From Aureococcus anophagefferens (Eukaryota; Sar; Pelagophyceae; Pelagomonadales; Pelagomonadaceae): a DNA stretch of 64,000 nucleotides. This document shows positions 2,482-62,791 of this stretch, piece after piece (the first letter of the stretch is position 1; each line of letters opens with the position of its first letter). The DNA is taken from positions 816,796-880,795 of the forward strand of contig NW_008705570.1 in assembly GCF_000186865.1 (NCBI RefSeq), read 5' to 3'. The notes under the pieces were generated by a model. It was not told where the DNA came from. It was given only the letters and a program-made list of their open reading frames with translations, and searched no databases. The position numbers and the translations under genes were made by a program.

Positions 2482-4571
2482 TTAGTCGTCGCGCGCTTTC
2501 TCGGGCGTGGTCTCTTCGGCGGGGTCCGACTCGAGGGGGTCGACGCCGTCGCGGAGGTCGCCGGTGAGCTCGTCGCGGTCGAGGCAGCGTAGCGTGACGA
2601 CGGCGTCGACGCGCACGTGCGTGTTGAGGATGCCGCCCCAGACGACGAGCCGCGACGCGTCGTCGATGGTCTCGGCGTCGACGCCCGTCGTGAAGCGGAC
2701 GCCGTCCTCGGGCGGCGACGGCTGCATCTGCGCGTGGCCGCGGGCGCCGCCGGCCTTGAGGCGCTCGGACTCGCCGCGCGCGACGGAGCAGAGGAGCAGG
2801 TGCTGGCGCCCGGCCGCGTCCGGCGACGCGTAGGTCGGGTCCAGGGCCATGAGCCCCCGGCGCCGGCCCGCGGGCGAGAAGTAGGCGCCGACGCCGTAGA
2901 CGGACGCGTTGCGGTCGCGGAGCACGAAGCCGTGGCCCGCGATGGGCGCGCACGCGCCGAGCGTCGTCCCGTGGAAGGCCTTCGTGACGTTGGGCGGCTC
3001 GCCCCGCGCGGCGAACTGGTCGACGGCGAGGTCGAAGAACGCGCCGCGCTCCGCGTTGCGCACCGCGTGGACGGCCAGGATCACGACCGGCGGCTCCGTC
3101 GACGCGATCTTGCGCGAGACGCCCCGGGGGGCTCCCGCGATCATGCGCGCGACGCCGCGGGCGACGCCGCGGACGCCGTCGAGCGCCGGCGCGAGCGACG
3201 TGCGCACGAGGGCCGCGGCGTCGAGGAAGGCGTGCGAGTCCGCGGCGAGGCGCTCGAAGCGCGGCGCGGGCAGGGCCGCCTCGAGCGTCGCGCCGCGGGA
3301 CGTCAGCGCGTCGCGGTCGACGTCGCGCGTGCCGTCGCCGCGCCGGCACTCGAGGCCGCCGCAGCAGAGCACGGGCGGCTCGTACGCGCGGCCGGCCGCG
3401 GTCATGAACGACACGGACCGCTCGTAGCCCGACGCCGCGCCGCCGGCCGCGGACGCGGGCTGCGCCTTGACCTGCTTGAGCTCGCCGCGCGGGCCGAGGT
3501 AGAGGTCGTACCGGGCGCCGCCGGACTCGAAGGACACGGCCGACTTGCCCCGGCCCCGGACGAGGCGCTCCGCGCACGCCGCGGGCGACTCGCGCGGCTC
3601 GGCCTTTTGCGCGAGCCTGTGTGGAATTCAAATCTTCAACTCGACTTCAATGTGCGCGTAACCGAACGATTTGGACCAGACTCTTTCGCTGTGCTTCGAG
3701 AACTCGACGAGAGCGATCGATTCGTCCAAAAATCAGCCGAATCGACTTCGATTTGATTGAGATAGAGAGTTCTGAAGTTTGGTGGGGACCCCCCAAACCA
3801 GTGGTTGATTTCCACACAGTGCGCGAGCCACGCGTAGACGCGCTGGGCCGCCGCGGGCTCGAAGGGCTCCCAGCGCGGGCGGCAGGTGCCGTCCTTCGGG
3901 CCCGCGTCGAGCTCGAGGTACGCGAGGCCGAGCGCGGCCGCGAGCGGCGGGAGCCGCGCGGCGCGCGCCGCCTCGAGCCGCCGCGTCGCCGTCGCGTAGA
4001 AGCCGCTCGCGACGCCCGCGGCGGCCGCGGCGGCGACGACGCGGTAGTGGCCGTCGGCGCCCTGCGCGAAGCCGAGCGCCGCGAGCAGGTCCACGGCCGC
4101 CGGCGTCGCGAAGTTCCGCCGGAACGCGTCGCTCCGGCCGTTGAGCCGCCAGGCCTTGGGCGCGTCGTCGCGCGCGTTCCGGGCGACGCCGCGGGCCGCC
4201 ACGAGGATCTTCGAAAGCGCGGGCTCCGCGACCTCCGCGACGACCTTGTCGACGGCGGCGTCGAAGGCCGCCGCGCGCGAGAGCGCCGCGGCGGCTCCGA
4301 GCTCGCGCGCGTCGGCCTCGAACGCGTCGCGCTCGGCCCGCGCGCGACCGAGCGCCTCGTCGACGGCGTCGCGTTGCCGGCGCGTCTCCTCGAGCTCCGT
4401 GCCGCGAGCGGCGTTGGACGCCGTGACCATCGCGTGCTCCCGCTGCAGCGAGTCGAGCCGCCGCGCGAGCGCGACTTTCGCGTCGCGCTCCTTCTTGTGC
4501 TTGTACTGGAGATAGAGCAACATAAAGACCGCCAGGGGCCACCACAGCGAGATGACGTCGTGCAGAGACAT
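2482..4571 (-). CDS. Membrane-anchored coiled-coil protein with PARP-like ADP-ribosyltransferase domain
   Basis: Two exons, 4571-3829 and 3616-2482, give 625 residues; the 212-bp intron is introner A1. The N-terminus has one transmembrane segment (SLWWPLAVFMLLYLQY), then a coiled coil to about residue 115. The second exon carries a PARP-type catalytic fold: FHGTT near residue 463, then GHGFVLRD and YGVGAYFS near residue 489. These are the H and Y that hold NAD in PARPs. A clear third-position glutamate is not visible (the strand reads LVVWGGILNTHVRVDA), so mono-ADP-ribosylation or loss of activity is possible. The reading frame across the junction is exact with a GC donor (phase 2). An alternative GTGG donor 3 bp upstream also keeps the frame. 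Confidence 0.7.
3617..3819 (-). mobile_element. Introner A1 (family A, 203 bp) forming the intron of the PARP-like gene
   Basis: Terminal inverted repeats CTGTGTGG and CCACACAG bound the element. The target duplication is TGCGCGAGC on both sides (9 bp; 8 bp if the extra T at 3820 is counted as element). In gene orientation the intron spans 3828 to 3617, begins GCTCGC (GC donor from the duplicated exon) and ends CACACAG from the element. Removal restores the codons for WLAQKAE. The element lies in the same orientation as the gene, taking the strand that reads CGGCTGATTTTTGGACGA as forward. Confidence 0.9.
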
Positions 4572-4716
4572 GTTAGTCGAGGGTAGACTGAATATCCGCG
4601 CCCGACTCTGCCGAGTCTTTTGCCGCTTCACCATCTCTTCAAGCGCACTGATAACGAACGCGCGGGCGAGGCAGCATCGAGGTCGAGATGACTCAAAATA
4701 TCCACGCTCGCCGATT

Positions 4717-5970: not shown

Positions 5971-6159
5971 CCTTTTTTGGAGGGTTTGCGCTGCTGGAAG
6001 CGGTTGCCGCGCTGCGAGTGGTGCGCTGCCTTCCACCAAGCCCCAGCGACCAGCGCGTGACGCAGCCGGGCAGCCACGGCACCGTTTCCTCGCGCGGCAG
6101 CGCGGCATTTTCCTTTGCCTCGGCGGGCACCTCGTCCGTCCGCTTGAAGGCGGCAAGCG

Positions 6160-7983
6160 ATGTGGGGCGGCAACAGGCTCGTCCTGCTGTGGGCGACGCT
6201 GCTGCTGCGGACCGCGGGCTATGCGCCTCGCCGCGTCCCCGGCATCGCGCCGGCGCGCGTCGCGCACCGGCTCCCGTCGCTGGACCGCCTGGCGCTCGCG
6301 GCGACGAGCGACGACGGCGACGCGCCGCGCGCCCGCGCGCCCAACGAGAGCGGCGACCAGCCGCCGCGGCGGCGGCCCGAGGGCAACGGCGGGCGCGGCG
6401 GCCGCGGCGCGGGCGCGGGCGCGGCGGCGGGCGCGGCGACGGCGGCCGCGGCCGCGGCGACGGCCGGCCGCGGCCCGCGCGGCGGCGGCAGCCGCAGAAG
6501 CCCCGGCCGAAGCAGGCCGAGGAGGCCGAGGTGGAGACGAAGAAGGAGACGGTCATCGGCGGCCCCGCCGCCGCCGGCGCCGTCGCGCCCTGGGCCAAGT
6601 CGCGGAAGCGGCGGCCCGGCGGCCCCCGCGACGACGGCAAGGCCGCCGTCGCCGGCGGCGCGCGCGCGGGCCAGGCCGCCGTCGCCGGCGGCGGGCGCGC
6701 GGGCCAGGCCGCCGCCGCCGGCGGCGGGCGCGCGCAGCGCATGCCCGGCGCGCCCCCGCGGGGCGCGAACCCGAACCCGAGGCGGCGGCGGCGCCGCGGC
6801 GGGAATCGCACGAAGACGGAGCAGCAGCCGCAGCAGTCGGCGACGCGGCGCTGCGTCTGCGGCTACTGCGGCGAGATGTTCGTCAGTCGCTCGAAGCTCT
6901 TCCGCCACCTGCGCGAGCTCAACGACTGCCGGAAGATCGCTTTGAGCCACGGCATGCCCCTGGAGAATCCCATCAAGGCCGTCGAGCGGCGGCTCCGGCG
7001 GCGCTACGGCGATTTGCTCTTGGCCGGGTGCATCGTGCTGCGCGTCAAGCCGGATATGGCGTCGGAGCCGCGCTTGATCGCCTTCCGCAAGAGCCCCCGG
7101 GGTCTGCTGCTGGGCAAGGGCGACGTGAGCCCCTACGAGTGCGTCATCGTCCGCGGCAACGAGGGCAAGCAGAAGCCGGGCTTCCCGAAAGGCAAAATCG
7201 AGCCCGTCGACGGGTCCATCTTGGGGGCCGCGCTGCGGGAGACCTGGGAGGAGGCGGGGTTGAAGGCCGACCAGCTCCGGGTGCTGCCCGCGTCCGCGGA
7301 GGCCGCGGCGAACGCGTCGGTGTGTCTGGACGCGGACGACTCGCGCATGTTCGCGGACGACGAGGAGGTCATGTTGGACGAGACGTCGGACGTCATCGTC
7401 AGCGACGAGTCGCCGGCGCCGGCCGAGGACTTCCCGGACCTCGACGACGACGTCGACGCCGCGGATCTGGATCGGGACGCCGCGGACGACCGGCGCTACG
7501 CGTCCGTCGACGTCCGCGAGGTCACGGGCCGGTCGGGCAAGCGCGCGCGCTACTTCGTCTGCGGCTTATCGGAAGCGCCGCGGAGCCCGCCGAAGCTGAC
7601 GACGCAGAACGACGTCGACGGCGACATCGCCGACGTGTCCTGGGTCGACGTCTGTGTGGAAATCAAATCTTCAACCCGACTTCAATGTGCGCGTATTCGA
7701 ATGTTTTGACACGAGCACTTCCGCCGTGCTTCGAGAACTCGCTGAGAGCAATCGATTCGTCCAAAAATCAGCCGAATCGACTTCGATTTGACCGAGCTAG
7801 AGAATTCTGAAGTTTGGCCCCGACGTCCCAGCTCACTGGTTGATTTGCACACAGGTCGACGTCAACGCGGCGCTGCTGCTCCTCGAGCGCAAGCGGCGCG
7901 CGGCGCTCCGCCGCGCCGTGCTCATCTTCGCGGCCGACGAGCGCGCGCTCGCGACGCAGGCGACGCGCGACCAGGCGCCCTAA
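6160..7983 (+). CDS. Zinc-finger and Nudix (DIPP/Aps1-like) hydrolase with plastid-type leader
   Basis: The ATG at 6160 starts a leader (MWGGNRLVLLWATLLL) in reading frame 1. The conserved domains are in frame 3, so a shift must occur in the GGC-rich stretch around 6340-6500, either a small intron or an indel. Downstream are three 33-bp repeats (AAVAGGxRAGQ, 6648-6740), a CGYCGEMF...H zinc finger (about 6858-6935), then a Nudix domain with FPKGKIEP and AALRETWEEAGL, the signature of enzymes that hydrolyse diphosphoinositol polyphosphates or diadenosine polyphosphates. The box has one extra residue and D in place of a usual E. Introner A2 interrupts the last domain at 7644-7854, and the 3' exon 7855-7983 finishes the protein (VDVNAALLLLER to DQAP). 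The stop lies 9 bp from the next gene's stop. Confidence 0.72.
6648..6740 (+). repeat. Three tandem 33-bp coding repeats
   Basis: The unit encodes AAVAGG(A/G)RAGQ three times in a row inside the linker of the Nudix protein. It is GC-only in composition and prone to slippage. It lies just downstream of the place where the reading frame must change. Confidence 0.7.
7652..7854 (-). mobile_element. Introner A2 (family A, 203 bp) in the Nudix gene
   Basis: Ends are CTGTGTGG and CACACAG; the 8-bp duplication GTCGACGT occurs at 7644-7651 and 7855-7862. The intron is 7644-7854: GTCGAC donor from the exon, CACACAG acceptor from the element, phase 0, directly before a valine codon. Splicing joins ADVSW to VDVNAA. 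The element is opposite to the gene strand, yet it is spliceable because both ends read CAG outward. Confidence 0.95.
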
Positions 7984-7992
7984 CATACACGA

Positions 7993-11103: not shown

Positions 11104-11134
<31 letters not shown>

Positions 11135-11502: not shown

Positions 11503-14500
11503 ATGTTGCGTGGAAGGATGCGCTCAATGCTCGCCCTCGCGACGCTCGGCGCCGCGGCCGCGAGCTCCTACGCCGAGGAGTCGGCGGCCTGCGCGGCGGC
11601 GGGCGGCGCGGCGCGCGTCGCCGAGGCCGACCTGCCCGACGACGGGACCTGCTTCCAGTGGGACGGCGTCGAGCTCGCGAACCGGAGCTACTGCCAGCCC
11701 TGCCTCAACGGGTCCTACTGGGACGAGTTCCGCGACGCGCGCGCGGCGTCGCGGCGCGCGGCGGCGACCGCGGCCCCCGTGGTGGTCGAGATGCCCTACT
11801 GGCTCAGCGGCCAGTTGCAGGCGTCGGCGATGCGGATCCTCCTCGAGGAGGTCCTGGGCTACGCCGTGCACATCTCCCTCGCGTCCGCGGGCAGCGGCAG
11901 CACGGCCCGCGTCGCCGCGGCCTGCGCGACGCTGGTCCCCGAGTTCTGGTACTCCGAGGGCATCCGCAAGCCCGAGTTCGAAGAAGCAACAAAAAGCGGC
12001 GCGGTCGCGAAGAACCAGGGCGCGCTGGGGCAGACGCGCCTCTTCGTCACGGCGTCGGCCGCGGACCCGCCCTACGACAAGCTCATCATGGACCACTACC
12101 GCTCCATCAAGCTGAACCCGGCCGTCGTCGCCGCGCTCCCGGCGGCCGGGAGTTGGGGCGCGCCGGACGCCGCCGCGTGCGGCGGCGCGGGCTGGACGAA
12201 CGCGTCCTGCGTCAACGGCACCTACGCGCCGCCGAACTGCGACCACGGGACCTGCGCCGAGGCCTACTTCGTCCTGCCGTCCTGGTCCGAGTCGTGGTAC
12301 GAGGGCTTCCTCACGGCCGAGGGCCTGAACCAGGGCAGCACAAGAGTGCGACATTCCCAACTTCAAAGGCTCATATCTCGGCCGTTTTCCACTCGTTTCG
12401 GCTGATTCTTGGACGAGCGATCATCTCTCGGAACGGCCTCGAAGCGTGGATGCTTTTTTTGGAACGCGCGCGCGCGGAACACTCACGTTGAAGCGACGTT
12501 GAATCACTCTCGTGCTGCCCAGGCCTGAACGTGACCGCGACGTACGTGGGCGTGTCGGGCATGGCCGACGTCGTCGAGGCGGCCCACAACGCGTCGCGGC
12601 CCGTGCTCTTCTACTGGTGGGACCCGGACCCGCTCGTCGCGCGCGTGCCCGTGCTGCCCTTGGCCGCGACGCCCTTCTCGTCCGCGTGCGAGGACCGCCA
12701 CGCCGGCGACCCGGCGCTCTCCGGCGCGAACTGCCTCATGAACGTCGACATGCTCAAGGCCGTGGCCCACGCGGCGACGCTCCAGGCCGACGCGAGCCTG
12801 GCGACCTTCTTCGCGGGCTACGGCGCGGACAACGACCGGCAAAAGGCCATGATGGCCCTGGAGACGCGCGGCGGCGGCGACCTGGGGGTCGAGGACGCGG
12901 CGTGCGCCTGGGTCCGGGCGAACGAGCCGGCCTGGCGCGCCTGGGTCACGGCGACGACCTGCGCGCCGGGGTCCGTCGTCGGCAACGGCACGGGCGACTG
13001 CGAGGCCTGCGCCGCGGGCAGTTACGCGGCCTTCGGGGCCGACGCCTGCGAGCCCTGCGCGCCGGGCTCCTTCGCGGCGGACGCCGGCGCCGCGGCCTGC
13101 GACCCCTGCCCCCAGGGCACGGCCGCGCCGACGACCGGGCGCGCGTCCTGCGACGGCTGCGTCGCGGGCGAGTACGCGACGTCCGCGGGCGAGACCCCGG
13201 GCATCGGCCTCACGTCCGGCGCGACGACGTGCGCCTTGTGCCCCGCGGGGACGCGGAGCGTCGCCGGCGCGAGCTTCTGCGCGCTCTGCGACTTTTCGCT
13301 GGGCTTCACAAGCGCCGAGGGCTCGGAGGTCTGCGACTCGTGCTACCCCGAGTTCTACTGGACGGGCGCGGCCTGCGAGCCCTGCCCCGGGCGCGCGACG
13401 TGCGCCGCCGGCACGACGACGGCGACGCTCGACGTCGAGGAGGGCTGGTGGCGCCTCGACGAGACGTCGACGGACATCTTGGAGTGCGCGCCGGACACGT
13501 GCGCCGGCGGCGTCGGCGTCACGGGCGCCGACGACTCGCCGGCGGACGCGTGCGAGCGGGGCTACCGGGGGCGGCTCTGCTCGCTCTGCGACGACGACTT
13601 CTACCTCGCCAGCAAAAAGTGCGAGTCCTGCGAGGGCCGGGGAGGTGAGAAACTCGCCATCGCCATGGGGCTCCTCGCCTACGGCGCCCTGAGCCTCCTC
13701 GTGCTCTACACGTCCCAGAGGCCGTCGGCGGCGGAGGAGCGGGAATTCGAGGACGCGGAGCACGAGCGCGAGGAGCGCGCGAGCATGGGCGCCGACGCCG
13801 CGAGCATGGACGCCGCGGCGACCGCCGAGCTCAGCGAGGCCGTCGACGACCCGGCGGCCGACGAGGCGCGCAGGCCCGCGGAGGCGATCCGCGTCCACGT
13901 GATCCGCATGTACGCGAAGCTGACGACGAAGTGGAAGCTCGCGTTCGTCGCGATCCAGCTCATGGTGTCGACGATGGGCACGATGGAGCTGCCCCCGGTC
14001 TACAACGGCTTCCTGGGGAGCCTGGGCTTCTTCGAGGTCGACTTCCTGGAGATCGCGGGGCTCGGCTGCCACCGGCGCGTGTCGTTCTACGGGACCCTGG
14101 CGATGTCGACCTTGGGGCCCTGGGCCTTCCTGCTGTCCGTGTTCCTGCTCTGGGCGCCGCTGTCCTACCTCTGCTGCGGGCGCCGCCACTCGCCGACGGC
14201 GGCGACGATCCTCGTGCTCTTCTTCACGTTCCCCATGGTGTCGGTGACGATCTGCCGGACGTTCCTCTGCTGCGAGTTCGACGACGGCGACGCGTACCTG
14301 CGCGCGGACCTGGACCTGCGCTGCGGCGGGCGGACCTACGACTTCTGGCGCGCCTACGCGGCGTGCATGCTCTTCGTCTGGCCCCTGGGCGCGCCGCTGT
14401 TTTTTTACCTCTCCGTGTGGTCCGTGCGGTCGCGCGTCGACCCGCTGAACTTCAAGAAGGGCGCGGAGATCACCGCGAGCGAGCAGGTCGCCATGGTCGA

Positions 14501-16053: not shown

Positions 16054-16116
<63 letters not shown>

Positions 16117-16682: not shown

Positions 16683-16966
16683 CTCCGGACGATTACACGT
16701 CGCTCCGCGGCGCGTCCTCCGGGTACGTGAAGAGCCAGGCCCCGCGCCGGTACCGGGCCGGAGCGAGAGCCCGACGACGGCGCCGAGGAGGACGCCGCGC
16801 ACGAGGCCGAGCACGACGGGTCGCGCCGGCTCCGTTGTGGCGGATCGGCGAGCGGTGCATCGAGCAGTGCATCGACTCTCCTGTGCGCCAAGGGCGCGCC
16901 AAGGGCGTCGTCGCGCCGCTCATCGTGTGCGCGCGCCGCCGCGAAGCGCTGCAGCCCCAAGCAGAC

Positions 16967-17878: not shown

Positions 17879-20143
17879 TTACTGCTGGGCGCAGCGGCCC
17901 GCGGGGGCGTCCTTCATCGCCTCGGCCTCGCGGCGCCGCAGTCCCGCGACCTCGGCCTCGAGGTCGGCGATCTTCGCGTCGCGCGCGGCGACGGCCGTCT
18001 GGAGCTCGGCCACGCGGCCCTTCAAGCGCTCGGCCTCGGCGACGGACGCGACGTAGTTCTGGGGCGGCTTCTCCTCGCGGGACCCGTCGAGGACGAGGGC
18101 CGTCGACGTGCGGCTGCCGTTGGCGTAGACGTCCATGGCGACGCTGCCCTTCACTTTCGGCGTGCCGCGGCGCTCCGCGTCCTCCGTCTTCCGCCGGAGG
18201 TCCGGCGACGGCGGCGGCTCGGGGCAGGCGACGCGGTGGAGGGGCGACCTGTCGGCGCCCGTGGACGACGCGAAGGGGTTGTTGAAGACGGGCCGGGGCC
18301 GCGCGGGCCGGCGGTCGCCTGGCGACGTCCGCGGGCTCCCCGGCGAGCCCGGCGGCGTGCGGCCCGCCGCGCGCGGCGACGGCGGCACGGACGGCGCGGG
18401 GATGCCGTAGGTGCCGCCGAACATGTGGGCGACGACCTTCCAGGAGCCCGTCGTGTCCACGGACTCGAAGGCCTCCAAAATCGGCGCGTCGCCGTCGTTG
18501 TCGATGCGCGCGACGAAGTCGACCTTGGGCGGCAAGAGGGTGATTCAACGTCGCTTCAACGTGAGTTTTCCGCGCGCGCGCGTTCCGGAAAAAGCATCCA
18601 CGCTTCGAGGCCGTTCCGAGAGACGATCGCTCGTCCAAAAATCAGCCGAAACGAGTGGAAACCGGCCGAGATAGGAGCCTTTGAAGTTGGGAATTTCGCA
18701 CTCTTTTGCTGCCCTGAAGTCGACCTTGGGCGTCAGCGCCCGCAGCACGTGGGGCGGCGCGGCGATGGAGTCGGCGAGGGACTGCTCGGGCACGTGCCGC
18801 TCGCCGACGCGCGCCGCGCGCGTCTTGACGCGCGCGCGGACCGTCGCCTCCTTCGCGTGGACGTAGAAGAGCGCGATCTTGTACGTCGGGTGCTTCGCGC
18901 GGAGCTCGTCGAACTCGCGCTCGTACCAGCCGTGGTCCCGCAGGGACCCGTCGACCCAGACGTGGAGGCGGTGGCGCATGGCCAGCTCCTGGGCGAGCTC
19001 CGCGAGGAGGCCGCTCTCCTTGTGGCACCGGGTCCCCGCGGACGCGGCGTCGCGGCGCACGTGGCCGGCCCACTCGGGCATCATCTGCTTGAAGCGGTCC
19101 GGGTCGATGTGGACGATGGACCGCAACGGTAAGATGTCGAGCGTCGACATCCAGTTCATGACCCAGCCCTTGCCCGCGCCCATCGCGCCGCACGTGAAGA
19201 CGAGCCACGGGTGCTGGTTCGGCGCCGCGCACTCGCCGTGCTTCGGCGAGCTGCTCGCCGACTTGGGCGACGACCGGTCGATCTTCGGCGCGCAGCGCGC
19301 ATTGAGGTCGAGGCCCGCGGGCAGGCCCACCGCGTGCGCGGCCGCGTCCTGCCAGAGCTGCCGCGCGTGGCCGTAGTTGCCGTGGTAGTCCGCGTCGAGC
19401 CGCGCGCGGATGTCCACGAGCTCGCCGACGAAGCCCGCGTCGAGGGGCGCGGCGTAGTTCTCCGTCGTCGACCGGTTGTAGTCGTAGCCCCGGGGCACGG
19501 CCCACGTCGTCGGCTCCGTGAACGTGTAGTGCGAGACGATGCGCCGGAGGAAGTGGTGGCGCCGGATGCCCGCCATGAACATGTCGACGTTGACGCGCGC
19601 GTCGCCGTCGGCGCCGCGCCGCAGGCCCTTCTGGGCGTCGGCGAAGCTCCGGCGCCGCCGCGGCGAGTCCGGCCCCGCGGATCCGCCGCTCGGTGGCGTC
19701 TTCGGGCTCGTAGGCGGCGACAGCATCCCGAGGGACGACGACGACGCCGCGCGCGGCAGCGCGCTGTCGTCGACGGAGACGAGGGACCGCGCGCCCGTCG
19801 CCAGCGCCAGGTCCTCGCCGAGCTGCGTGAAGAGGTTGTTGACCTCGTGGTCCGTCATGCCCAGCCCCAGGTCGCCGAGCAGCCCCCGGAACGTCGCCAG
19901 GTCCATCTGGCCCCCGGGCGCCGCGGCGAAGGCGTCGAAGACCATCTTCAGGTCGCTCGGCTCGACGACGCCCTTCGTGAACCGGCCTACGGAACGGACA
20001 CATGGAACGCTTCGCCAGCGCGGGGCAGACGCCGCGCGCGGACTGTGCATGCGCATGGATTTGCGCCGCGTCATGGCCGTCTTCGCCATGGGCTCCAGCG
20101 GCCGGGGCCGCGGCCGCACGCGCTCCGCCGCGGGCCGCTCCAT
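17879..20143 (-). CDS. EF-hand plus P-loop kinase (zeta-toxin-type fold) protein with phospho-rich tail
   Basis: Exons 20143-18725 and 18523-17879 give 687 residues; introner B2 lies between (phase 0). The N-terminal 40 residues are basic. An EF-hand-like helical region follows (VEPSDLKMVFDAFAAAPGGQMDLATFRGLL...). Near residue 320, FTCGAMGAGKGW is a Walker A P-loop. It is followed by DPDRFKQMMPEW and HKESGLLAELAQ, the pattern of the UDP-N-acetylglucosamine/zeta-type kinase fold that eukaryotes use as small-molecule kinases. The C-terminal exon completes the fold and adds a proline/serine-rich linker and a terminal coiled coil (RLKGRVAELQTAVAARDAKI). The function is unknown; the resemblance to the bacterial zeta fold does not make it a toxin. 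Earlier starts upstream of 20143 are possible. Confidence 0.62.
18524..18716 (-). mobile_element. Introner B2 (family B, 193 bp) in the EF-hand/kinase gene
   Basis: The duplication is GTCGACTT in gene orientation (18717-18724 and 18516-18523). The intron 18724-18524 begins GTCGAC and ends GCCGCCCAAG, so the usual CCCAG has become CCCAAG. Phase 0, before a valine codon. Identity of the two flanks extends to 16 bp because the element's last bases (CGCCCAAG) match the exon just before the duplication. Same orientation as the gene. Confidence 0.9.
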
Positions 20144-37164: not shown

Positions 37165-38554
37165 CTACGCGAGCTTCTGGGGCGGCATGTCGACCTTGGT
37201 GACGTGGTTCTCGGGCTTGTGCGCGTAGTAGTAGTCCGACGTGCCCTTGCCCGGCGTGCTCGCGACCTGCTTGGACCCGCCGACGTAGGTGACGGCCTCG
37301 TCCTCGTCCGTGTCCGACTCGGACGCGCCCGCGAGCTTGTTGGGCGCGTAGGCCGGCGCGTCCTTGGACGTGCCGGTTTTGTGCGCGTAGTAGTAGCCGC
37401 TCGCGAGGCCGCCGCGGTGGCGGGCCTTGCCCGAGAGCCGCGCGTCCCTACCGCCGTCGTTGCGCTTCGTCGCGGCGCCGCCGCCGGCCGTCGCGCGGCG
37501 GTTGCGCTTCTTCAGCTCCTCCGTCAAGTCCTCGTGCGCGCCCGACGGCGCGCCGCAGCGGCGGCACGCGAGGTGGTCGACGCGGTTCCAGGACCAGACG
37601 CCGCACTCGACGTTGCCGTCGGCGCCCGTCCGCGGCTTGATGTTCCGCGGCGCGCCGCGCTGCTGCACGTAGCCGCTGCAGCCCGTGTCGTAGCACTTGC
37701 CCCGCGCGGTGCCCAAGAAGTCGACGTCGGGCGTGCGGTCGTCCTCGTCGGCGAGCTTGTCCATCGTCTGCTTGTCCCAGCCCAGGTCCTCCCGCCGCAT
37801 GTCCTCCTCCAGCTCCCGCCGCTTCCGCTCGGCGAGCTCGTCCTTGCGCACGCGCTCGAGGTGGCCCTTCCAGCCGTCGCGCTGGCACCTGTGTGGAAAT
37901 CAACCAGTGAGCTGGGACGTCGGGGCCAAACTTCAGAATTCTCTAGCTCGGTCAAATCGAAGTCGATTCGGCTGATTTTTGGACGAATCGATTGCTCTCA
38001 GCGAGTTCTCGAGGCACAACAGAAAGCCTCGCGTCGAAACGGTCGCATACGCTCACATTGAAGTCGGGTTGAAGATTTGATTTGCACACAGGCTGGCACT
38101 TGGGCGAGCAGAAGTAGCTCGTCGTCACGCCCGTGAGCGTCTTTTTGGAGGTGGGCACGTAGCACACGGAGCACGCACCCATGGTCTCCTCGAGTTTTCG
38201 GCTGTTCTTCGGCGCGCCCGCGGCGACGTTCTCGTCCTCGCGGCGCTGGCGCCAGGCCTTGAGCTCCTCCTCGGTCATGTTGTCGCTGAGGTGGACCTCG
38301 GCCTGGCGGCGGACGTGCGACTCGCGCCGCGCCTGCTGACTGGCCTCCGCTTCTTCTTCCGCCGTGGCGTCGGGCGTGTTGCCGAGCTTGGCCATCTTCT
38401 CGGTCAATTGGCGCAGGCGCTTCTCGCTCTCGGCGATGGCCTTGGCGTCGCCGTCGCCGGCCTTGAGGGCCTGCAGCTTCTTCTGCTCCTCGCGCGCGAG
38501 CGTGCGGAAGAGGCCCATCTGCTTCCCCGCCGATCGCTTGACCATGCCGCTCAT
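37165..38554 (-). CDS. Zinc-ribbon-containing protein of unknown function
   Basis: Exons 38554-38100 and 37888-37165 give 392 residues across introner A3 (phase 2). A coiled coil at about 20-60 (REEQKKLQALKAGDGDAKAI) is followed by two cysteine clusters. The first is CSVCYVP...YFCSPKC near residues 128-152, spanning the intron. The second is GKCYDTGCSGYV...VECGVWSW...LACRRCGAPSG near 210-270. Both have CxxC-type spacing fit for zinc. The C-terminus has two GYYYAHKTGTS and DYYYAHKPEN repeats. RNA- or DNA-binding is possible; I do not recognise the family. The ATG at 38554 follows an in-frame TTG that was ignored. Confidence 0.6.
37889..38091 (+). mobile_element. Introner A3 (family A, 203 bp) inserted within a zinc-cluster codon run
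   Basis: Ends CTGTGTGG and CACACAG; perfect 8-bp duplication GCTGGCAC on the plus strand (37881-37888 and 38092-38099). In gene orientation the donor is GTGCCA from the exon and the acceptor CACACAG from the element; intron 38099-37889, phase 2, joining SPK to CQRDGW. The element is opposite to the gene strand. Confidence 0.95.
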
Positions 38555-40956: not shown

Positions 40957-43900
40957 ATGCGCCGCTCCTTCGCCGACACGGAGGCGCCGCTGGCGCTCGC
41001 GCCCCAGTCGACCTTCGAGCCCGTGGAGATCGCGCTCTGGGGGCTGACCTACGACGTCGACGGGACGCGGCTGCTCGACGGCGTCACGGCGCGCTTCGAC
41101 CACGGCCAGAGCGCGGCCGTGCTCGGCCCGTCCGGCGCGGGCAAGTCGACGCTCCTGTCGGTGCTCGGCGGCCACGCGGGCGGAAACGTCGGCGGCGCGC
41201 TGCGCCTCAACGGCGTCGCGCCGAGCGCGGCGGAGCAGCGCTTCGCGTCGAGCACGCTGCCCCAGGACGACTTCGTGCACGGCGCGCTGACGGTCCGCCA
41301 CCAGGGCGGGAAAAGGGCGCGACATGCCCAGCTTCAAAGGCTCATCTCTCGGCCGTTTTCCACTCGTTTCGGCTGACTTTTGGACGAGCGATCATCTCTC
41401 GGAACGGTCTCGAAGCGTGGATGATTTTTCCGGCACGCGCGCGCGCGGAACACGCACGTTGAAGCGACGTTGAATCACCCTTTTCCCGCCCAGGTGCGCC
41501 ACGCGCTCTTCTACGGCGCGCTCCTCCGGAGCCCGCGGCGGTGGTCGCGCGCGAAGAAGTTCGCCGCGGCGTCGAGCGCCCTGAGGAGCCTGGGCCTCGC
41601 CAAGGTGGCCAACGCGGCCCTCTCGCGCGTCTCCGGCGGCGAGCGGCGCCGCGCGGGCGCGGCGCTCGAATTGCTCGCGGAGCGGCCCGTGCTGCTCATG
41701 GACGAGCCGACGTCGGGCCTCGACGCGCACGCGGCGCTCGCCCTGCTCAAGACCTTCGCGGACGTGGCGCAGGCGCAGCGGCGCAACGTCGTCGCCGTCG
41801 TCCACCAGCCCTCCTTCGCGGCGCTGTCGACGTGCCGGCGCGTCGTCGTCTTGGGCGTCCAGGGCCGCGTCGCCTTCGCGGGGCGGCCCGCGCAGCTCGG
41901 GCCCTACCTCGCGGACCACGGCGCGCCCTGCCCCGCCGGCGCGAACCCGGCGGACTTCGCGCTGGCCCGGCTCGCCGCGGACGGCTCGCGGGCCTGGGCG
42001 CGCGCGTGGGCCGCGGACGGCGACGAGCCCGCGCCGGCGCCGCTCCCGAGCAAGCGCGGCGACGGCACGGCGCGACTCTGCGTGCCGGCCTACGCCGCGA
42101 GCTTCGTCGAGCAGTACAAGGTCCTGCTGCTGCGGTCGCTCCATTGCTACGTCGCGGACCCGTCCCAGGGGCCGACGTCGCTCGCGCTCACGGCGTTCTC
42201 CGTGGCCTTTCTGGCGCTGCAGCTCTTCGGCGCGCCGCCGTCCGTGGCCAAGGCCAACGGGATCCTGTTCTTCGCATTGGTGCTCTACCAGGCGGCGACG
42301 CTGCCCCTCGTCGTCGTCATGCCGCTCGAGCGCGCGGCGACGGTTCGCGAGTACCGCAACGGCGTCTTCGGGAGCGGCGCCTACTGGCTCGCGCGCGTGA
42401 CGACGGCGGCGTTGAGCGCCCTCGTGCTGGCCGCGTTGTCTATGGCCATCTTCTACCCGAGCCTCGCGCTGCCGAGCGCGCCCGACGCGCGGCCGCTCGC
42501 GTGGTTCGCGGCGTCGTTCCTCGGGCTCGTCGTCTTCATGGTCGTGGGCCTGATCCTGGGCACGGTGCTCCCGTCGGCGCTCGTGTCCGTCAAGGCCGTG
42601 CCGGCGCTCATGGTGTTGATGCTCCTGACGTCGGGGTTCCTCCCGCCGCGGACGCTGTTGCGGCCGGGCGTCGCGTGGCTCCAGGTGCCCAACCCGCTCG
42701 CCTACGTGCTCAAGCTCCTCTTCGGCGCGGCCCTGACGAAGACGGACAAGGGCCGGCGCGTCGTCTTCGACGCCGACCTCTTCGACGTGCGGGAGGCGGA
42801 TCAAGCGAGATGCTTCCTCGCGCTCGGAGCGATCCTGGTCGCGTTGGTCGTCCTGGGCTTCTTCGCGACGCACGCGCGCCTCGCCATGGCCGACGCGCCC
42901 GTGTCGAGCCTCGCGCCCGCGGCGCCGGCGGCGCCGGCGGCGCTCACGTCGCACCCGCAGCTCGCGAAGACGCTCGCGTTCGCGAAGGCGCTCGAGCCCC
43001 AAAAAACTTTGGAGACGACGACGACGCCGCTCCTCGCCGGGGCGCTCCCGGACGACGACGAGGTCTACGGCGCCCTCGACGACGACGTGCCGCCCGTGTC
43101 CGTGGTGCTGCGCGACGTGACGTGCACGCGGAGGAACGGCGCGGCGACGCTGCGCCGCGTGTCGTGCGCGTTCCACCCGGGCGCGGCGACGGCGGTCTTG
43201 GGGCCGAGCGGCGCGGGGAAGACGACGCTCCTGGAGACCCTCTGCGGCCGCGTCGACGGCGACGTCGCCGGCGACGTCGACGTCAACGGCCGGCCGCTCG
43301 ACGCGGAGCGGTTCAAGCTGCTGGCGACGCTGACGCCGCAGGCGGACGCGCTCATCCCGGAGCTGACGCCGCGCCAGACGCTCCACTACACGGCGCGGCT
43401 GCGCTGCGGGTCCTGCGCGAGCCGCCACGAGCGGCTCCAGCGCGCCGAGGACGTCCTCGTGGCGCTGGATCTGGGCTCCTGCGCGGACGTCGCCGTCGGC
43501 GGCCGGGGCAGGCTCGGCGTCTCCGGCGGCCAGCGGAAGCGCGTGTCCATCGGCATGGACCTGCTGGCGTCGCGGCCCGTCATGATTCTGGACGAGCCGA
43601 CGACGGGCCTCGACGCGGAGGCGGCGTGTCGCGTGGCTTCCCTGCTGCGGTCGCTGGGCTTCAACGGCGGGCGGACGGTGCTCTGCACGATCCACCAGCC
43701 CCAGTGGGCCGTGCTCGCCGCCTTCCCGCGAACGTTAGCCCTCTGCGACGGGCGCGTCGCCTTCGAGGGGCCGCCCGCGTCCCTCGCGCCGTTTCTGAGG
43801 TCCGCGGGGCGTCCCGTCCCGGAGGCCGAGAACCCCGCGGACTTCTTCATGGTCGCGCTCGCGACGGAGGGCGGCGACGTCTGGGGCGACGCCTGGGACC

Positions 43901-44978
43901 GGGCGCGGCGCGGGCTGAAGACGACGCCCCTCGCGCGCGCGGGCGCGTGCGAGGAGAAGCACAGCCTCCCGTTTCTCGCGCCCGGCTACGGCGCGTCGTT
44001 CTGGGAGCAATTCACCATACTCTTCGAGCGGTCGGCCTACGTGTTCTGCGTGGACCAGGATCAAGGCCTGGAGTTCCTCGTGCCGCCGTGCCTCGTCGCG
44101 GTGCTCGTGGGGCTGGTCTTCTACGACGCGGGCGTGTCGATCTGGGCGGTGTCGGGCGTCGCCATGGGCGTGCTCGGGCTGTCGATCCTGACGATGCTCG
44201 GCGTCGTGCTGAACATCCCCCTGGAGCGGGATCTGGTGCTCCGCGAGTACAAGAACGGCGCCTACGCCGCCGAGGCCTACTGGGCCGCGCGCGCGGCGCT
44301 GGGAGTTGCCGCGGCGTGTTTGGTCGCGGTCGCGCAGACGCCCATCTGGTGGACGCTCATGGGCCTGCCGCGGCGCGGGTTGGCCTACGCGACGCTGCTG
44401 AGCGCGCTGACGGCGGCCTTCTACGTGACCATGGGCGGCCTCATCGGGCTGCTGTCGCCGGACCCGGTCGCGGCCGCGCAGCGCACGGAGCCCGTCACGG
44501 CCAGGGCAGGACAAGGGTGATTCAACGTCGCTTCAACGTGAGTGTTCCGCGCGCGCGCGTTTCGGAAACAGCACCCACGCTTCGAGAGCGCTCCGAGAGA
44601 TGATCGCTCGTCCAAAAATCAGCCGAAACGAGCGGAAACCGACCGAGATAGGAGCCTTTGAAGTTGGGCATGTCGCACCCTTTTCCTGCCCAGGTCACGG
44701 CGTCGATCCTCATGTTCGCGGGCGTCCTCGTGCCCAGGGCGCGCATCAAGCCCTTCCTCCTCTTCATCTACGACGCCATCCCCGCGCGCTACAGCATCGA
44801 GGCCGCGACGTGCCTCGCGCTGCCGCGGTCCGACCCGGCGGCGGCGGACGTCCTCGCCTACTTCGACGTGCACCGGGGCCACCTCAAACGCAACCTCGCC
44901 ATCCTCGCCGCCGAGGCCCTCGCCATCCTCGTCGTCGGCGGCGTCGTCGCGCGCTGGCGCCTCACGCTCCGGTCCTAA
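40957..44978 (+). CDS. Full-size ABCG (PDR-type) ABC transporter
   Basis: Exons 40957-41292, 41494-44493 and 44694-44978 give 1206 residues across introners B6 and B7 (both phase 0). Layout is NBD-TMD-NBD-TMD, the reverse order typical of ABCG. First nucleotide-binding domain: GPSGAGKSTLL near residue 57, signature VSGGERRRAG, DEPTSGLDAH. First membrane domain of six helices includes REYRNGVFG. Second domain: GPSGAGKTTLL, VSGGQRKRVSIGMD, DEPTTGLDAE; its membrane domain includes REYKNGAYAAEAYW. Both ATP sites keep Walker A, signature and Walker B. It probably exports lipids, sterols or toxic hydrophobic compounds at the plasma membrane. At 1206 residues it is slightly shorter than plant and fungal PDR pumps. 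Confidence 0.88.
41302..41493 (+). mobile_element. Introner B6 (family B, 192 bp) in the first ABC domain
   Basis: Ends CAGGGCGGGAAAAGG and CCTTTTCCCGCCCAG. Flanks GTCCGCCAC and GTGCGCCAC match 8 of 9. Intron 41293-41493: GT donor, phase 0 before a valine codon, joining ALT to VRHALF. Same orientation as the gene. Confidence 0.93.
44502..44693 (-). mobile_element. Introner B7 (family B, 192 bp) in the last ABC membrane domain
   Basis: Perfect 8-bp duplication GTCACGGC (44494-44501 and 44694-44701). Intron 44494-44693: GT donor, CCCAG acceptor, phase 0 before valine, joining TEP to VTASILM. It is the only family B copy here opposite to its gene, yet its gene-side ends still read CAGGG at the 5' side and CCCAG at the 3' side. 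Confidence 0.95.
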
Positions 44979-45114: not shown

Positions 45115-46386
<1,272 letters not shown>

Positions 46387-54982: not shown

Positions 54983-55051
54983 ACCTGCGTCGCCAACCAA
55001 ACTCGCCGCAGGCTCCACGAGGTGGGCCCGCGGCAAAGCTCGGCGAACGAT

Positions 55052-57091: not shown

Positions 57092-57254
57092 GCGGGGGGG
57101 GTGCCTAAGCCGGAGCCGTGTGGCGCCGCCGGCGGCCTCGGACACTTCCTCGGACGCGTCATCGAGTCGCGGTGCCGCTGCGACGTTGACTCATTGAACT
57201 TGACGTTGACGTTCGTTGGCTTTTGCAAATTCGAAGACTCCGGGCTGCCCAACG

Positions 57255-58271: not shown

Positions 58272-59585
58272 GTCCGTGTTAAGCCGAGGTGGTGCCCGAG
58301 GAAGCCGACGGCCGCCGGCACGACCCTGTCCGCCGTCGGCTCCGCGTCCCGCACGAGGCCGTAGCGGTCGAAGTCGAGCACGGGGACGTTGAGCGCGCGC
58401 GCGAGCGGCAGGAGCGGGCCGAGGAACGTCTGCATGGCGTCGTTGACCGCCGGCGCGAGGTAGGACACGTGCGTCGGCGCGGCCGGGCCCTCGAGGAAGA
58501 GCGCCGCGCGCCGCGGCCACGGCCCGTCGACGTCGCCGCCGACGCGGACGACGCCGCGGCACCGCGCGACCTGCGGCTCGACGCGCGACAGCGGCACGGG
58601 CCCGTCGTTCGCGGACGCGACGGCGAGCCAGGGCGCGTCGTCGACGGGCTCCGCGAAGCCCGCGATGGCGACGCGCGCGGCCGCGCCGGGCAGCCGCATG
58701 GCCGTGCCCGCGCCCATGGAGTGGCCCAGGCACCCGACCGCGCCCGTCGCGCCGGCGTCTTCGCGCGCGTGGCGGAGCGCCGCGGCGACGATCGCCGACC
58801 GGTCGCTGCCGCCGCCGGGGTCGGGCGCGTAGGAGCCCGTGAGCGACTGGTCGAAGTCGGGCGACACGACGACGGCGCCCCGCGCCGCCAGCGCCTCGCC
58901 GTAGAGCGCGAGGTCGAAGCGGGACCTGTGTGGAATTCAACCACTGGTTTGGGTGGTCCTGACCAAACTTCAGAATTCTCTAGCTCGATCAAATCGAAGT
59001 TGATTCGGCTGATTTTTGGACGAATCGATTGCTCTCGTCGAGTTCTCGAAGCACAGCCGAAAACCTCGCGTCGAAACTTTCGCATACGATCACATTGAAG
59101 TCGGGTTGAAGATTTGAATTCCACACAGAGCGCGACCCGAGGAAGCCGTGCGCGAGCACGACCGCGGGGCGCGCCGCCGCCGCGCGGGACGGCGCCGCCG
59201 CGAAGACGCCCGCGCTCGGCGCCAGCGGGAACGACCAGCCGAGCGCGCCCGGGAGCGGCGCGCCGAGGAACGTGCGGAAGAGCTTGCCCACGGAGATGCG
59301 GTAGTCGTAGAGAGGCGCGTCGCCGGTGTCCGCCGCCGCGTCGCCGGGCAGCCACACGGCGGCGGGCACCGCGACGCCGCAGTCGAGGCGGAGCCGCGTC
59401 TCGTAGTAGCCCACGGGCGCCGCGCAGCGCCGCACGCGGCTGCTCGACGCCGCGGCGCCGCCGCCGCCGAGCGCGCGGCCGCTCAAGGCCGCGGCGCCGC
59501 CGCTGCCGAGCGCGGCGCGCCTCGTGAGCGCCGACGTCGAGGACGCGACGAGCCAGAGGCCCAAGCAGCTCGTGCGCGCCGCCAT
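58268..59585 (-). CDS. Alpha/beta hydrolase (chlorophyllase/PAF-acetylhydrolase-like) with plastid-type leader
   Basis: Exons 59585-59137 and 58925-58268 give 368 residues across introner A4 (phase 2). The leader MAARTSCLGLWLVASSTSALTRRAALGSGG looks like a signal peptide followed by a twin-arginine lumen signal. ARPAVVLAHGFLGSRFDL carries the oxyanion strand (HGFLG). VGCLGHSMGAGTAMRL near residue 219 is the nucleophile elbow with serine; PVDDAPWLAVASAND and THVSYLAPAVNDAM are the expected acid and histidine strands. It fits chlorophyllase-like or PAF-acetylhydrolase-like enzymes that cleave ester bonds of pigments or lipids. Confidence 0.75.
58926..59128 (+). mobile_element. Introner A4 (family A, 203 bp) in the alpha/beta hydrolase gene
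   Basis: Ends CTGTGTGG and CACACAG. The duplicates differ at one base: AGCGGGAC (58918-58925) and AGCGCGAC (59129-59136) on the plus strand. The difference is synonymous (both encode serine-arginine in gene frame), showing drift after insertion. Intron 59136-58926: GTCGCG donor, phase 2, joining HGFLG to SRFDLA. Opposite to the gene strand. Confidence 0.94.
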
Positions 59586-59702
59586 CTCTCAGCAGCTCGT
59601 CGGCGCTTTCAGCTGTTCGAGCTTGCGGCCATCGAGCACGAGCTCGAGCGCATCACGAGCGGCAACATCGGCTTTGCCACAAAATTGCCACTACAGACAA
59701 GC

Positions 59703-60173: not shown

Positions 60174-60184
60174 GATCCCCCCCG

Positions 60185-62791
60185 CTAGAGGAGGACGAGG
60201 TGGTCCGCGAGCGCGAGGCCGCCGCGGGGTTTCCCGCCGGGCTCGACGGGCGCGACGACGGACGGCGGGTCGCCGCCGCCGAGGTCCGCGGCCGGCGCGG
60301 CCGCCGGCGGCGCGGCGCCGAAGAGCGCCGCGGCCTGGAGCATGGTGGGCCCGAACAGATTCGCGGTGACGACGCCGACGACCTTCGTCGAGCAGGCGGC
60401 GATGAAGGACGACGTCGACGGGGCCGTCGCCGCCGAGTAGAGCGACGAGAAGAGCGACGCGGCGCCGGCCGTGGAGTCGTACTCCGCGGCCGAGTCGCGC
60501 GAGTCGTCGCCGCCGGGCCCGACGCGCGCGGCGCCCGCGGCCCAGTCCTCGTCCACGCTGCCCATGGTCGCGATGGCCTGGCTGAACTTGGCGAAGTTGT
60601 CGACGACGGAGCGCCGGGGCTTGCGGCGCCGCGCGTTCGGCGACGGCGCGCCCCCGTAGCACGCGAACGGCCGCGCGCGCGGCGGCGGCGCGGGCACGGC
60701 GACGCGCGACGACGCGTAGGTCGCCAGCGCCGCCTGCTCCAGCGTCGGCGGCTGCGCCGTGCGCACGGACGCCGCGTCCGTGTTGTTGAAGGAGATCTCG
60801 CTGATCGCGTCGGACGGCGCCGCGTCCGGCGCCTCGAGGATCGCGCGCGCGGCGGACGCCGCCGCGCCGGACCAGCCGCTGTCCGCGGCCGCCGAGTACT
60901 CGTCGCCGCGCCGGTCGACCGGGGCGCCGCGGTCGAAGGCCGGCGCGGGCGGCATCTTCGCGAGGCGCGTCGGCGACGCGCCCGGGCCCGACGCGCGCGC
61001 GCGCGCCGACAGGGACCGGCGCTTCGCGCGCCTCCGCGCCTCCCCCGCCTCCCCCGCCGCCGCCGCGGCCTCGTCCCGGAGCTCCCTCTCCGCCGCCGCC
61101 GCGAGGCGCTCGTGGGCCCGCTGCTGCGTGTGGCGCACGGGGCTCGCGGGCGCCGCGGCGCCGCGGCTCGCCGGCGGCGACTCGAGCAGCGGGCGGCCGC
61201 CCGGCGCGCGCGGCGCCGCGAGGCGGAGCGCGCGGTCGACGTCGTGGTCCCGCGCCTTGAGCGGGGCGATGGACCGCGACCGCACGCGCGGCAGCGTGGG
61301 CCCCCGGTGCGCGTCCAAATCGTCGTCCGCGCCGCGCCAGTCGTAGAGCGCCTTGACGTCCTTGGACGCGAGCGTCACGCGGCTCGCCTTGAGGTCCTTG
61401 ACGGACGCGCCGGCGAGCACCTTGTTGACGTGGTAGGCGCCCCGGGCCGGCTGCTTGCCCGCGCGCATCTCGCGCGCGAGCTTCCGGTGGACCTTGGCAG
61501 GCAAAAAAATGTTCAAAACGACTTCAATATGCATGTACTCGCGCGGTTTCGACATAACTTTTTCGCTGTCTGTCAAGAACTCGCCGAGAGAAAACGATCC
61601 GTCCAAAAAACAGCCAAAACGGCTTCGATTTGACCGAGGTAGAGAGGTTTGAAGTTTTGCTGGACCGGTCCGTTCCGCCGGTCGTTTCCGGCACGGCGGT
61701 GGACCTTGCGCGCCTCGACGTGCTTCTCGCGCTTCCGGAGCCGCCGCGCGCGGATCTTCAGCGTGTCCTCGCGCCAGGCGCCGAAGACGAGCTTGATGAC
61801 GCTGTCGGGCTGCTCGAAGAACTCCGCCTCCTCCGCGGACATGGCCCCGTACGCCGCGAAGCCCTCGTTCTCCGGCGTCGCCATGCGGTGGCTCGACGCG
61901 GCGAAGTTGCGCTGCTCCACGGCCGCACTGCGCCAGGCCCGCAGGAAGTCCTTGAGCGTGTCGTAGTCCTCGTCGCCGAGCGGCTTCAGGTAGTCGCCGA
62001 GGTCCTCGACGAGCGGCTTGCCGTAGTCGCCCGGCCCGTGTCCTTTCGGCATGACGAAGCCCAGGCGCCCCGCGGGGACGCCGGCCTGCTTCGCGTGGCG
62101 CCGCGCCTCGCGCGCCTCCTCGACGGAGTCGTCGTCGCTGTCGCTGTCGCCGTTGAAGAGCTCGCGGTACGTCTTGATGACCTCGTTCATCTTCGCGACG
62201 CGGTTGAGCACCTGGGCGATTCAACGTGAGTGTTCCGCGCGCGCGCGCGTTCCGGGAAACGCATCCACGCGTCGAGATCGCTCCCGGGGATGATCGCTCG
62301 TCCAAGAATCAGCCGAAACGAGCGGAACGCGGCCGAGAAACCGGGAACGTCGCGCCCTTCGCGACGCGGTCGAGCACGGCCTTCTTCTGCTTCTCGGACT
62401 GGTAGCGCGCCTGGATGAAGAGCTTGGCGTTGACGCGGCCCACGGTCGCCGCGTCGAGCCACCGCGTGCCGCGGCTGTTCAGGTTGCCGACGACTTTGCG
62501 GTCGACGGCGGCGCGCGCGCCGACCGCGCCGGGCACGTGCAGGCTGCTCGGCCGCCCGAGCATCTTCACGCGGGGCTTGCCGCTCCGCGAGTGGAGGTCG
62601 ATGGGCGGCAGGGCCTTGGCGCTCGCCTGGCCCTCGTCCTTGGGCTGGCGCTTCCAATTCGCGCCGGACGCGCGCGGCCGCGAGCTGCCGAGGGCCCGCG
62701 TCCGCTGGCCGCTGCCGAAGCGCCGCGCCGACGCGCGCGCCTTGGGGGAGCCCGGCTCCTTCCTGGCGGGAGACGACGGCGGGGCCGGCAT
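60185..62791 (-). CDS. Large basic protein of unknown function interrupted by two introners
   Basis: Exons 62791-62378, 62211-61705 and 61492-60185 give 742 residues across introners B8 and C1 (both phase 0). The N-terminus is basic and serine-rich. The middle (about 130-320) has conserved-looking helices: KTYRELFNGDSDSDDD, DYDTLKDFLRAWRSAAVEQRN, FFEQPDSVIKLVFGAWREDTLKIRARRLRKREKH. The C-terminal half is disordered, alanine/proline/serine-rich, with KARDHDVDRALRLAAP and a coiled coil (RAHERLAAAAERELRDEA). Scaffold or cytoskeletal roles are plausible but unproven. Exact frame continuity at both introners supports the model. Confidence 0.6.
61493..61696 (-). mobile_element. Introner C1 (third family, about 204 bp)
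   Basis: In gene orientation it runs CCGTGCCGGAAACG to TTTGCCTGCCAAG, flanked by the 8-bp duplication GTCCACCG (61697-61704 and 61485-61492). Intron 61704-61493: GT donor, CCAAG acceptor, phase 0 before valine, joining EARK to VHRKLA. The interior (ACTTCAAACCTCTCTACCTC, TTTTTGGACGGATCG) is homologous to families A and B, but both ends differ from either. Confidence 0.9.
62212..62356 (-). mobile_element. Introner B8 (family B, 145 bp, both ends trimmed)
   Basis: The core and CGCGCGCGCG tract are intact, but the outer CAGGGCAGCA-type ends are largely lost; the 3' side still ends GCCCAG. The flanks share 21 bp with one mismatch (62191-62211 against 62357-62377), far longer than the usual 8. Intron 62377-62212 gives GT-AG, phase 0 before valine, joining QKKA to VLNRVAK; a donor further in (GTCGCG) would also keep frame by repeating seven residues. 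Confidence 0.85.

Follow-up and report, generated by a model that had tools for sequence, protein, structure and literature searches.

The coding regions of a 64,000-nucleotide stretch of the Aureococcus anophagefferens genome (contig NW_008705570.1, positions 816,796 to 880,795 of the forward strand, in its entirety called the window below) hold thirteen copies of a repeated element which, judged from their sequence, are very probably introners, that is, non-autonomous DNA transposons removed as introns, with the splice donor lying in the target-site duplication and the acceptor in the element itself. Introners are a leading explanation of the bulk origin of introns, and those of A. anophagefferens, which this genome displays with unusual clarity, were reportedly described by Huff, Zilberman and Roy in 2016 in Nature. 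Introners in this species are an already known kind, and what is added here are counts, both in the window and across the genome, and a rule governing the ends of one family of elements. The transposon-derived reading, already put forward in a preliminary description made from the letters of the stretch, is supported by terminal inverted repeats, duplications of 8 base pairs (bp), near-identical copies and restoration of the reading frame, all of which fit it.

At up to three mismatches the element core, CGGCTGATTTTTGGACGA, has 13 matches in the window (12 at up to two mismatches, the copy at 61599 being the one with three), where 0.02 are expected in shuffled sequence, and these copies are distributed over 10 host open reading frames (ORFs). 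Each is bordered by a pair of 8-mers with at least seven of eight bases alike; nine pairs are perfect, and those of the copies at 35536, 41293, 58926 and 62212 agree at 7/8, with additional bases between the duplication and the degenerate left end at 35536. Element types can be told apart, as the preliminary description had it, but its three consensus types reduce to two main families, A and B, and one diverged A-like copy with other ends (61493-61704). The introns, in window coordinates, are:

Introner intron 1: 3617..3828, minus strand; family A, core in gene sense; GC-AG; host gene 4634-2482 (PARP-like match below the Pfam cut-off)
Introner intron 2: 7644..7854, plus strand; family A, core antisense to the gene; GT-AG; host gene 6741-7983 (NUDIX)
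Introner intron 3: 12323..12522, plus strand; family B, core in sense; GC-AG; host gene 11503-15077
Introner intron 4: 18524..18724, minus strand; family B, core in sense; GT-AG; host gene 20143-17879 (P-loop protein; Pfam Zeta_toxin/AAA_33)
Introner intron 5: 33775..33952, minus strand; family B with a 22-nucleotide (nt) internal deletion; GT-AG; host gene 34252-33433
Introner intron 6: 35536..35708, plus strand; family B, degenerate left end; GC-AG; duplication 7/8; host gene 34454-37082
Introner intron 7: 36023..36222, plus strand; family B; GC-AG; host gene 34454-37082
Introner intron 8: 37889..38099, minus strand; family A, core antisense; GT-AG; host gene 38554-37165
Introner intron 9: 41293..41493, plus strand; family B; GT-AG; duplication 7/8; host gene 40957-44978
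Introner intron 10: 44494..44693, plus strand; family B, CTG..CTG ends on the core strand, core antisense; GT-AG; host gene 40957-44978
Introner intron 11: 58926..59136, minus strand; family A, core antisense; GT-AG; duplication 7/8; host gene 59585-58268
Introner intron 12: 61493..61704, minus strand; diverged A-like copy with other ends (CCGTGCC..GCCAAG); GT-AG; host gene 62791-60185
Introner intron 13: 62212..62377, minus strand; family B, truncated left end; GT-AG; host gene 62791-60185
Ordinary intron: 46005..46244, minus strand; polyubiquitin, first unit; 240 nt; GT-AG; 85% G+C; no match to the introner profiles

The borders of introns 1 and 13 were set by hand in one step and agree with those given by the 8-mer pairs. 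The thirteenth intron, which the preliminary description had ended at 62356, is present but ends at 62377; it sits in a 21-bp duplication (62191-62211 / 62357-62377, one mismatch) instead of an 8-bp one and its left end is missing, an arrangement that points to repair or tandem duplication more than to simple transposition.

Once the element is removed, the upstream reading frame (third-position G+C 0.92-1.00) carries on downstream at 0.94-1.00 in 12 of the 13 cases. The remaining copy, at 7644, lies in a gene that ends 42 codons downstream, and a fixed 300-base window gives a third-position G+C of 0.77; restricted to the ORF the values are 0.95 and 1.00, and frame continuity is therefore found in 13/13. 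Left in place, the element introduces an in-frame stop in all 13. A seven-state codon-usage segmentation, blind to the elements but using a codon table from window genes with the elements removed, rendered 12 of the 13 copies as non-coding low-G+C islands (G+C 0.48-0.58, and 0.65 in the truncated 62212 copy) between coding blocks of the same strand, the degenerate copy at 35536 being visible merely as a frame change. The only other intron found in the window, where introns of untranslated regions were not looked for, was the polyubiquitin intron. Hence the claims that thirteen core copies lie in coding regions, that excision together with one copy of the duplication restores the frame, and that the elements account for all but one of the introns are borne out, the last for the introns tested. 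Genome-wide, the core matched 3,749 times at up to two mismatches in the assembly of 49.05 Mb (86 contigs; reversed-pattern control, 1), and the window, with 12 such matches per 64 kb, has about 2.5-fold the average match density of the genome.

Splice borders were examined in 96 unique copies, namely the 13 of the window, 15 from a 200-kb stretch of contig C1 taken regardless of content, 8 from loci found by an exact core match and 60 picked copies (20 of family B by a GCCCAG right end, 20 of family B by a CTGGGC left end, and the 20 best family-A matches). Both family-B picks (40 copies) fix the acceptor AG and leave the donor free. Two L006 rows duplicating L005 copies, one L047 edge hit and one partial C1 copy were dropped before counting; gene sense was assigned by codon usage, and borders and sense were set by hand in 5 copies, 2 of them among the 33 of family A. 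Each of the 95 resolved introns opens with GT or GC at the start of the upstream 8-bp duplication (57 GC, 38 GT) and closes with AG at the end of the element. The best flanking frames agree on the sense strand in 94 of these copies (92 on the strictest reading), and the target duplication is alike at 8/8 positions in 68, at 7/8 in 19 and at 4-6/8 in 8. The unselected stretches, in the window and on C1, gave 15 GC and 12 GT donors.

Genome-wide, the family-B end TTGAATC-N11-GCCCAG occurs 1,080 times and is followed by GT in 492 cases and by GC in 574, together 1,066 or 98.7%, while the mirror type CTGGGC-N22-AACTT, with 564 occurrences (reversed control, 11), is preceded by RC (R, A or G) in 531 (control, 1). 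In flanking exons the corresponding dinucleotides make up 4.2% (GT) and 16.0% (GC); the odds for GY (Y, T or C) are about 300-fold those for the rest and, corrected for availability, GT is favoured about 3.2-fold over GC. Beyond GT/GC the donor holds little information: no GTRAGT-like donor was found in the sampled copies, and positions 3 to 8 of the duplication and the last exon bases resemble flanking coding DNA, except that T is rare at exon position -1 and A is rare at position 3. In cases of disagreement between the two duplication copies at the donor, the intron has GC and the exon GT 7 times, and the reverse holds 2 times. Family A, whose two ends are alike, lies in the orientation of its gene in 14 copies and opposite to it in 19, with GY at the gene-sense start in 33/33. 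The rule thus tracks the gene strand rather than the element strand, and its origin in a target preference was for this reason considered and rejected. The excess of GT and GC at duplication starts shows that the copies have, in all probability, been filtered by splicing. The genome may accordingly be viewed as a natural selection experiment in which targets starting with GT/GC survive and others hardly do (1,066 to 14 for the one family-B end type) and which, with GC donors only about threefold less favoured than GT, would measure the minimum donor that the host spliceosome accepts.

In the mechanism we propose, a short non-autonomous DNA transposon would insert into coding DNA and duplicate 8 bp of its target, the last two bases of the element then providing the acceptor AG and the first two bases of the upstream duplication copy the donor. 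The 8-bp duplication would set the distance between them, and excision would give back the original codon sequence, as read from the restored frames. As the genome-wide count for family B and the sample for family A show, hardly any insertion persists unless GT or GC, read in the sense of the gene, stands at the beginning of the duplicated target. Family A, with symmetrical ends (CTGTG..CACAG), works as an intron in either orientation, and family B carries its acceptor-type end only on the gene-sense 3' side. In RNA, the terminal repeats would pair and bring donor and acceptor side by side. Predicted folds have at least 8 terminal pairs in 91 of the 95 introns (31/33 in family A, 60/62 in family B; median 14 to 15 pairs), with the first 8 nt mostly free (mean 0.825 unpaired); given paired repeats and a free 8-nt stretch, donor and acceptor are predicted to be adjacent. 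In these folds the acceptor A is paired in 28/33 copies of family A vs 1/62 of family B. Terminal pairing may thereby help the spliceosome to accept donors without consensus beyond GT/GC. That longer stems rescue GC donors was considered and rejected, no difference in stem length being seen between GC and GT donors.

Proteins of relatives offer a view of the junctions from outside the window. One host protein of the window is 96% identical to A. anophagefferens SO694_00008050, and another is 98% identical to JL721_4036, identities that place the DNA in A. anophagefferens or a very close relative; the relatives are predicted proteins, except P0007 (MMETSP; 46-47% identical). Relatives carry an uninterrupted protein at three of the four junctions compared. 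For gene 38554-37165 there were ten hits, of which P0017 was left out of the alignment, and 7 of the 9 aligned relatives (P0011, P0012, P0014, P0015, P0016, P0018 and P0019) run on through the junction without insertion, P0013 reading into the element. At the junction of gene 34252-33433, P0001-P0005 and P0007 read on and P0006 reads into the element, and at the second junction of gene 34454-37082 the GC-AG border is matched by P0020, with P0022, which is more distant, running through as well. P0008 was weighed as evidence of a sister-species intron in the identical place, a reading given up because Leu precedes the junction and no Leu codon ends in AG (by eye).

The borders allow another assignment, in which the introner carries both splice sites, the family-A donor being the GTG inside the terminal repeat, and the messenger RNA gains 12 nt (8 of duplication and 4 of element). 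Exactly 12 nt more than the duplication-start donor gives are carried by one relative, P0010, and 12 extra bp (4 of introner and 8 of duplication) are described for an Aureococcus sp. family in PMC9860276. An inner donor would, however, free the duplication start to vary, yet GT/GC stands there in 33/33 copies of family A against about 20% of flanking-exon dinucleotides; no GT occurs among the first 14 bases of family B, and seven of nine relatives at the 38554-37165 junction lack extra residues. We consider such an inner donor improbable, and the family-A sample argues for the duplication start as the likely real donor here. Ordinary transposon insertions that disrupt genes and are left unspliced would have the same miniature inverted-repeat anatomy of terminal repeats and 8-bp duplications, but they would show neither of two features observed here, GT/GC at 1,066/1,080 duplication starts and codon usage and frame continuing on both sides, which leaves this explanation scarcely credible.

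Spread as RNA by reverse splicing, a model mentioned for fungal introners (PMC9860276), would account for copies found almost only in genes and at GY-AG positions. Each site nevertheless has its own duplication (8/8 in 68 of 95) and the element has terminal inverted repeats, and the occurrence of family A in both orientations (14 same, 19 opposite) is not given by reverse splicing of a sense transcript; the probability of this route appears very small. We place about as little weight on excision by the terminal hairpin alone, without the spliceosome, as may be the case for euglenid nonconventional introns: at least 8 predicted terminal pairs in 91/95 introns, the donor next to the acceptor, and a donor with little consensus beyond GY are what it would lead one to expect, but GY-AG borders in 95/95 sampled copies and at 98.7% of one family-B end type are those of spliceosomal introns, and nonconventional introns are described as lacking conserved borders (PMC6221363; PMC4770533).

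Several results weigh against introners spliced from the duplication start to the element end. No mobilising transposase was found with the three profiles searched (PF05699, PF10551 and PF21787). GT/GC does not follow 14 of the 1,080 GCCCAG ends, and no GY-AG intron could be made out for one partial copy in the C1 stretch; L079 lacks frame agreement, and the strictest strand test is passed neither by L036 nor by the C1 copy at 61601. Retention would bring no in-frame stop in 12 of 94 sampled introns, and in 9 of 95 the length is divisible by three. The codon table was trained on window genes already stripped of the elements, and the equal stem length for GC and GT donors gives no support to a compensating role of pairing. 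Among the proteins, the A. anophagefferens model P0010 has 4 extra residues (KCQPVCQRDGW vs KCQRDGW), which corresponds to a donor 12 nt further in. The first junction of gene 34454-37082 is not cleanly supported by any relative, and P0021 carries 11 additional residues there (donor 33 nt further in). The extra residues of P0010 and P0021 look like donor mis-calling by annotation, and a recheck of some published Aureococcus intron borders and of proteins with four gained residues is suggested.

The preliminary description had also held that the copies never lie between genes, which is what was found for 13/13 in the window; 65% of random window positions, however, pass the same coding test, and the window alone is thus weak evidence on this point. 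With the C1 stretch included, 26 of the 27 resolved introners have two flanks that both pass the strict coding test (P about 1e-4), where random positions, 4,000 in each stretch, pass in 65% (window) and 63% (C1). The restriction to genes is carried by the genome counts more than by the window, and these counts concern family B only. With exon frequencies as a guide, random non-genic copies would start with GY in about 20% of cases; the ends without GY, 14/1,080 and 33/564 (about 11 of the latter expected by chance, hence about 23/553 after subtraction of the chance control), imply that about 2% and about 5% of the two family-B types could be non-genic, rather than many copies lying between genes. 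Purifying selection accounts for the rule inside genes and not by itself for the rarity of copies between them, for which an insertion bias towards gene bodies is one possibility; nucleosome linkers have been reported as insertion sites for these introners (PMC9860276).

Profiles of families A and B, built from the window copies, match members of the other family only in the interior (mostly positions 38-185 of A), and the core is thus common to the two and the terminal repeats differ. A first look with these profiles gave 2,091 candidates for B and 1,732 for A, lists that may overlap, the core being common. Full-length introners measure about 190-204 nt. Family A has the ends CTGTGTGGAAATC..GATTTCCACACAG, with slight variation among copies, and its terminal inverted repeats, judged by eye, extend over about 13 bp and in some copies contain a mismatch; family B has CNGGGC at the start and GCCCNG at the end, the second base being mostly A or T. 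Some sampled copies depart from these forms. Two family-B copies, L090 and L095 (C1:804321-804772 and C2:577533-577984), have a variant left end, CCTGGCAGG, after the duplication, which may represent another end type. The sole sample copy not placed as an intron (C1:328474-328553) consists of about 80 nt of a family-A left end with no recognisable right end, and a diverged family-B copy (C1:331389-331572 and downstream), whose GC-AG borders were set by hand, has an apparent internal tandem duplication near its right end.

The two ends of family B are related in a peculiar way at their second position. Across the 53 of 62 copies kept for the comparison of arms by length and C at both ends, the arms match at positions 3-16 in 671/742 cells (mean 621 and maximum 648 in 5,000 shuffles), with co-variation at positions 9, 11 and 15. 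Position 2 is complementary in 0/53 copies, vs 41% in cross-copy comparisons; the 40 sampled copies chosen by one end do not have the other end fixed thereby. The gene-sense 3' end is CAG or another AG, and the second base at the gene-sense 5' end is A in 43, G in 13, C in 6 and T in 0 of the 62 copies, including a few degenerate ones in which the base counted is no true terminus. On C1 together with C2 up to 1.306 Mb, the 56 CTGGGC ends, a few of them chance matches, have GCCCTG as partner in 33 cases, GCCCAG in 0 and neither in 23, and 0/100 GCCCAG ends have a listed CTGGGC partner. Six GCCCTG ends without a listed partner were considered as the missing CAG..CTG form and rejected, all six having T at left position 2 on reading (the variant end CCTGGCAG in two, an extra leading C in one), which brings GCCCTG ends with a T-type left end to 39/39 in this region.

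Splicing alone explains why the CAG..CTG form is missing. It does not explain the absence of CTG..CAG, as family A uses exactly these ends; here either one end has to stay intact for the family-B transposase, or the acceptor would be hidden by pairing, and the former is somewhat favoured, given that family A tolerates acceptor pairing. Taking these observations together, we suggest with considerable reserve that family B keeps one transposon-type terminus (C[A/G]GGGC) and has had its other end converted to an acceptor (GCCCAG), separately at either end, which would yield the core-sense and core-antisense subtypes; that fully complementary ends would be excluded, by the need for an intact end or by burial of the acceptor A in the closing stem; and that the stem, at a fixed 8-nt offset from the donor, would replace a donor consensus such that any GT/GC is accepted, a form of structure-guided splicing derived from the terminal repeats of the transposon itself. 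We would put this joint account below an even chance.

The hAT superfamily is characterised by an 8-bp duplication, CAGGG-type ends and a hAT transposase. Family B, considered as a candidate member, shows an 8-bp duplication and, on one side, a CAGGG-type end; a search for the hAT dimerisation domain (PF05699) gave 0 matches in the genome, but its control was also silent in every genome. PF10551 likewise had 0 genome matches, with a positive control, and PF21787 detected a single broken P-element-like copy genome-wide, on contig C25 (L029:3772-4712), with three in-frame TAG codons. A diverged antisense introner core interrupts this copy as an apparent GT-AG intron at about 4529-4712 (by eye). 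No introner-like ends were seen in its 8-kb neighbourhood outside 3,261 bases that read N. Holding an introner core itself, the copy counts as another host of the introners rather than as a demonstrated driver of them.

The closest known system is that of the published introners of A. anophagefferens, a line of work for which the reference list of PMC12768974 names Huff, Zilberman and Roy (2016). A characteristic length of about 210 bp is given for Aureococcus introners (PMC9481584), and PMC7789003 describes direct repeats as well as terminal inverted repeats whose length is constant; the introns here, from the same genus, are about 200-211 nt and have repeats of these kinds. Aureococcus introners are said to have canonical splicing motifs (PMC7789003), whereas over half of the donors here are GC, and the same source names A. 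anophagefferens as one of the species in which the proportion of non-canonical introns is raised, so that the share of GC donors may already be known. The available literature, which left out most subscription papers, yielded no statement of the position-2 rule for the ends or of a GC-AG majority among Aureococcus introners. Introner family 4 of Aureococcus sp. (Gozashti et al. 2022, PMC9860276, Fig. 2F) is alike in genus and in its 8-bp duplication, but is described with both splice sites in the introner and 12 bp added, whereas here the donor appears to lie in the duplication and nothing is added. Amoebophrya introners share inverted repeats able to pair the intron ends and direct repeats at the borders, but have highly variable, non-canonical borders (PMC7789003), in contrast to GY-AG in the copies sampled here. 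In euglenid nonconventional introns, too, RNA structure joins the ends and no U1-like donor sequence is present (PMC6221363; PMC4770533), but their borders are not conserved, whereas here they are GY-AG in 95/95.

Some features of the window remain to be mentioned. The host gene 34252-33433, itself without a Pfam match, has a relative named DUF1279-containing by one source, and the host gene 40957-44978 looks like an ABC transporter by eye. A scan of the window for transfer RNA genes found none. At two places, near 6496 and 50521 (window 6157-7652 and 48965-50823), the segmentation passes directly from one frame to another of the same strand with no gap between them; there may be separate genes, short introns or sequence errors there. 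A long run of CGG/CGA/CTG trinucleotides occupies 16028-16140, within a stretch of low coding signal at 15376-16894.

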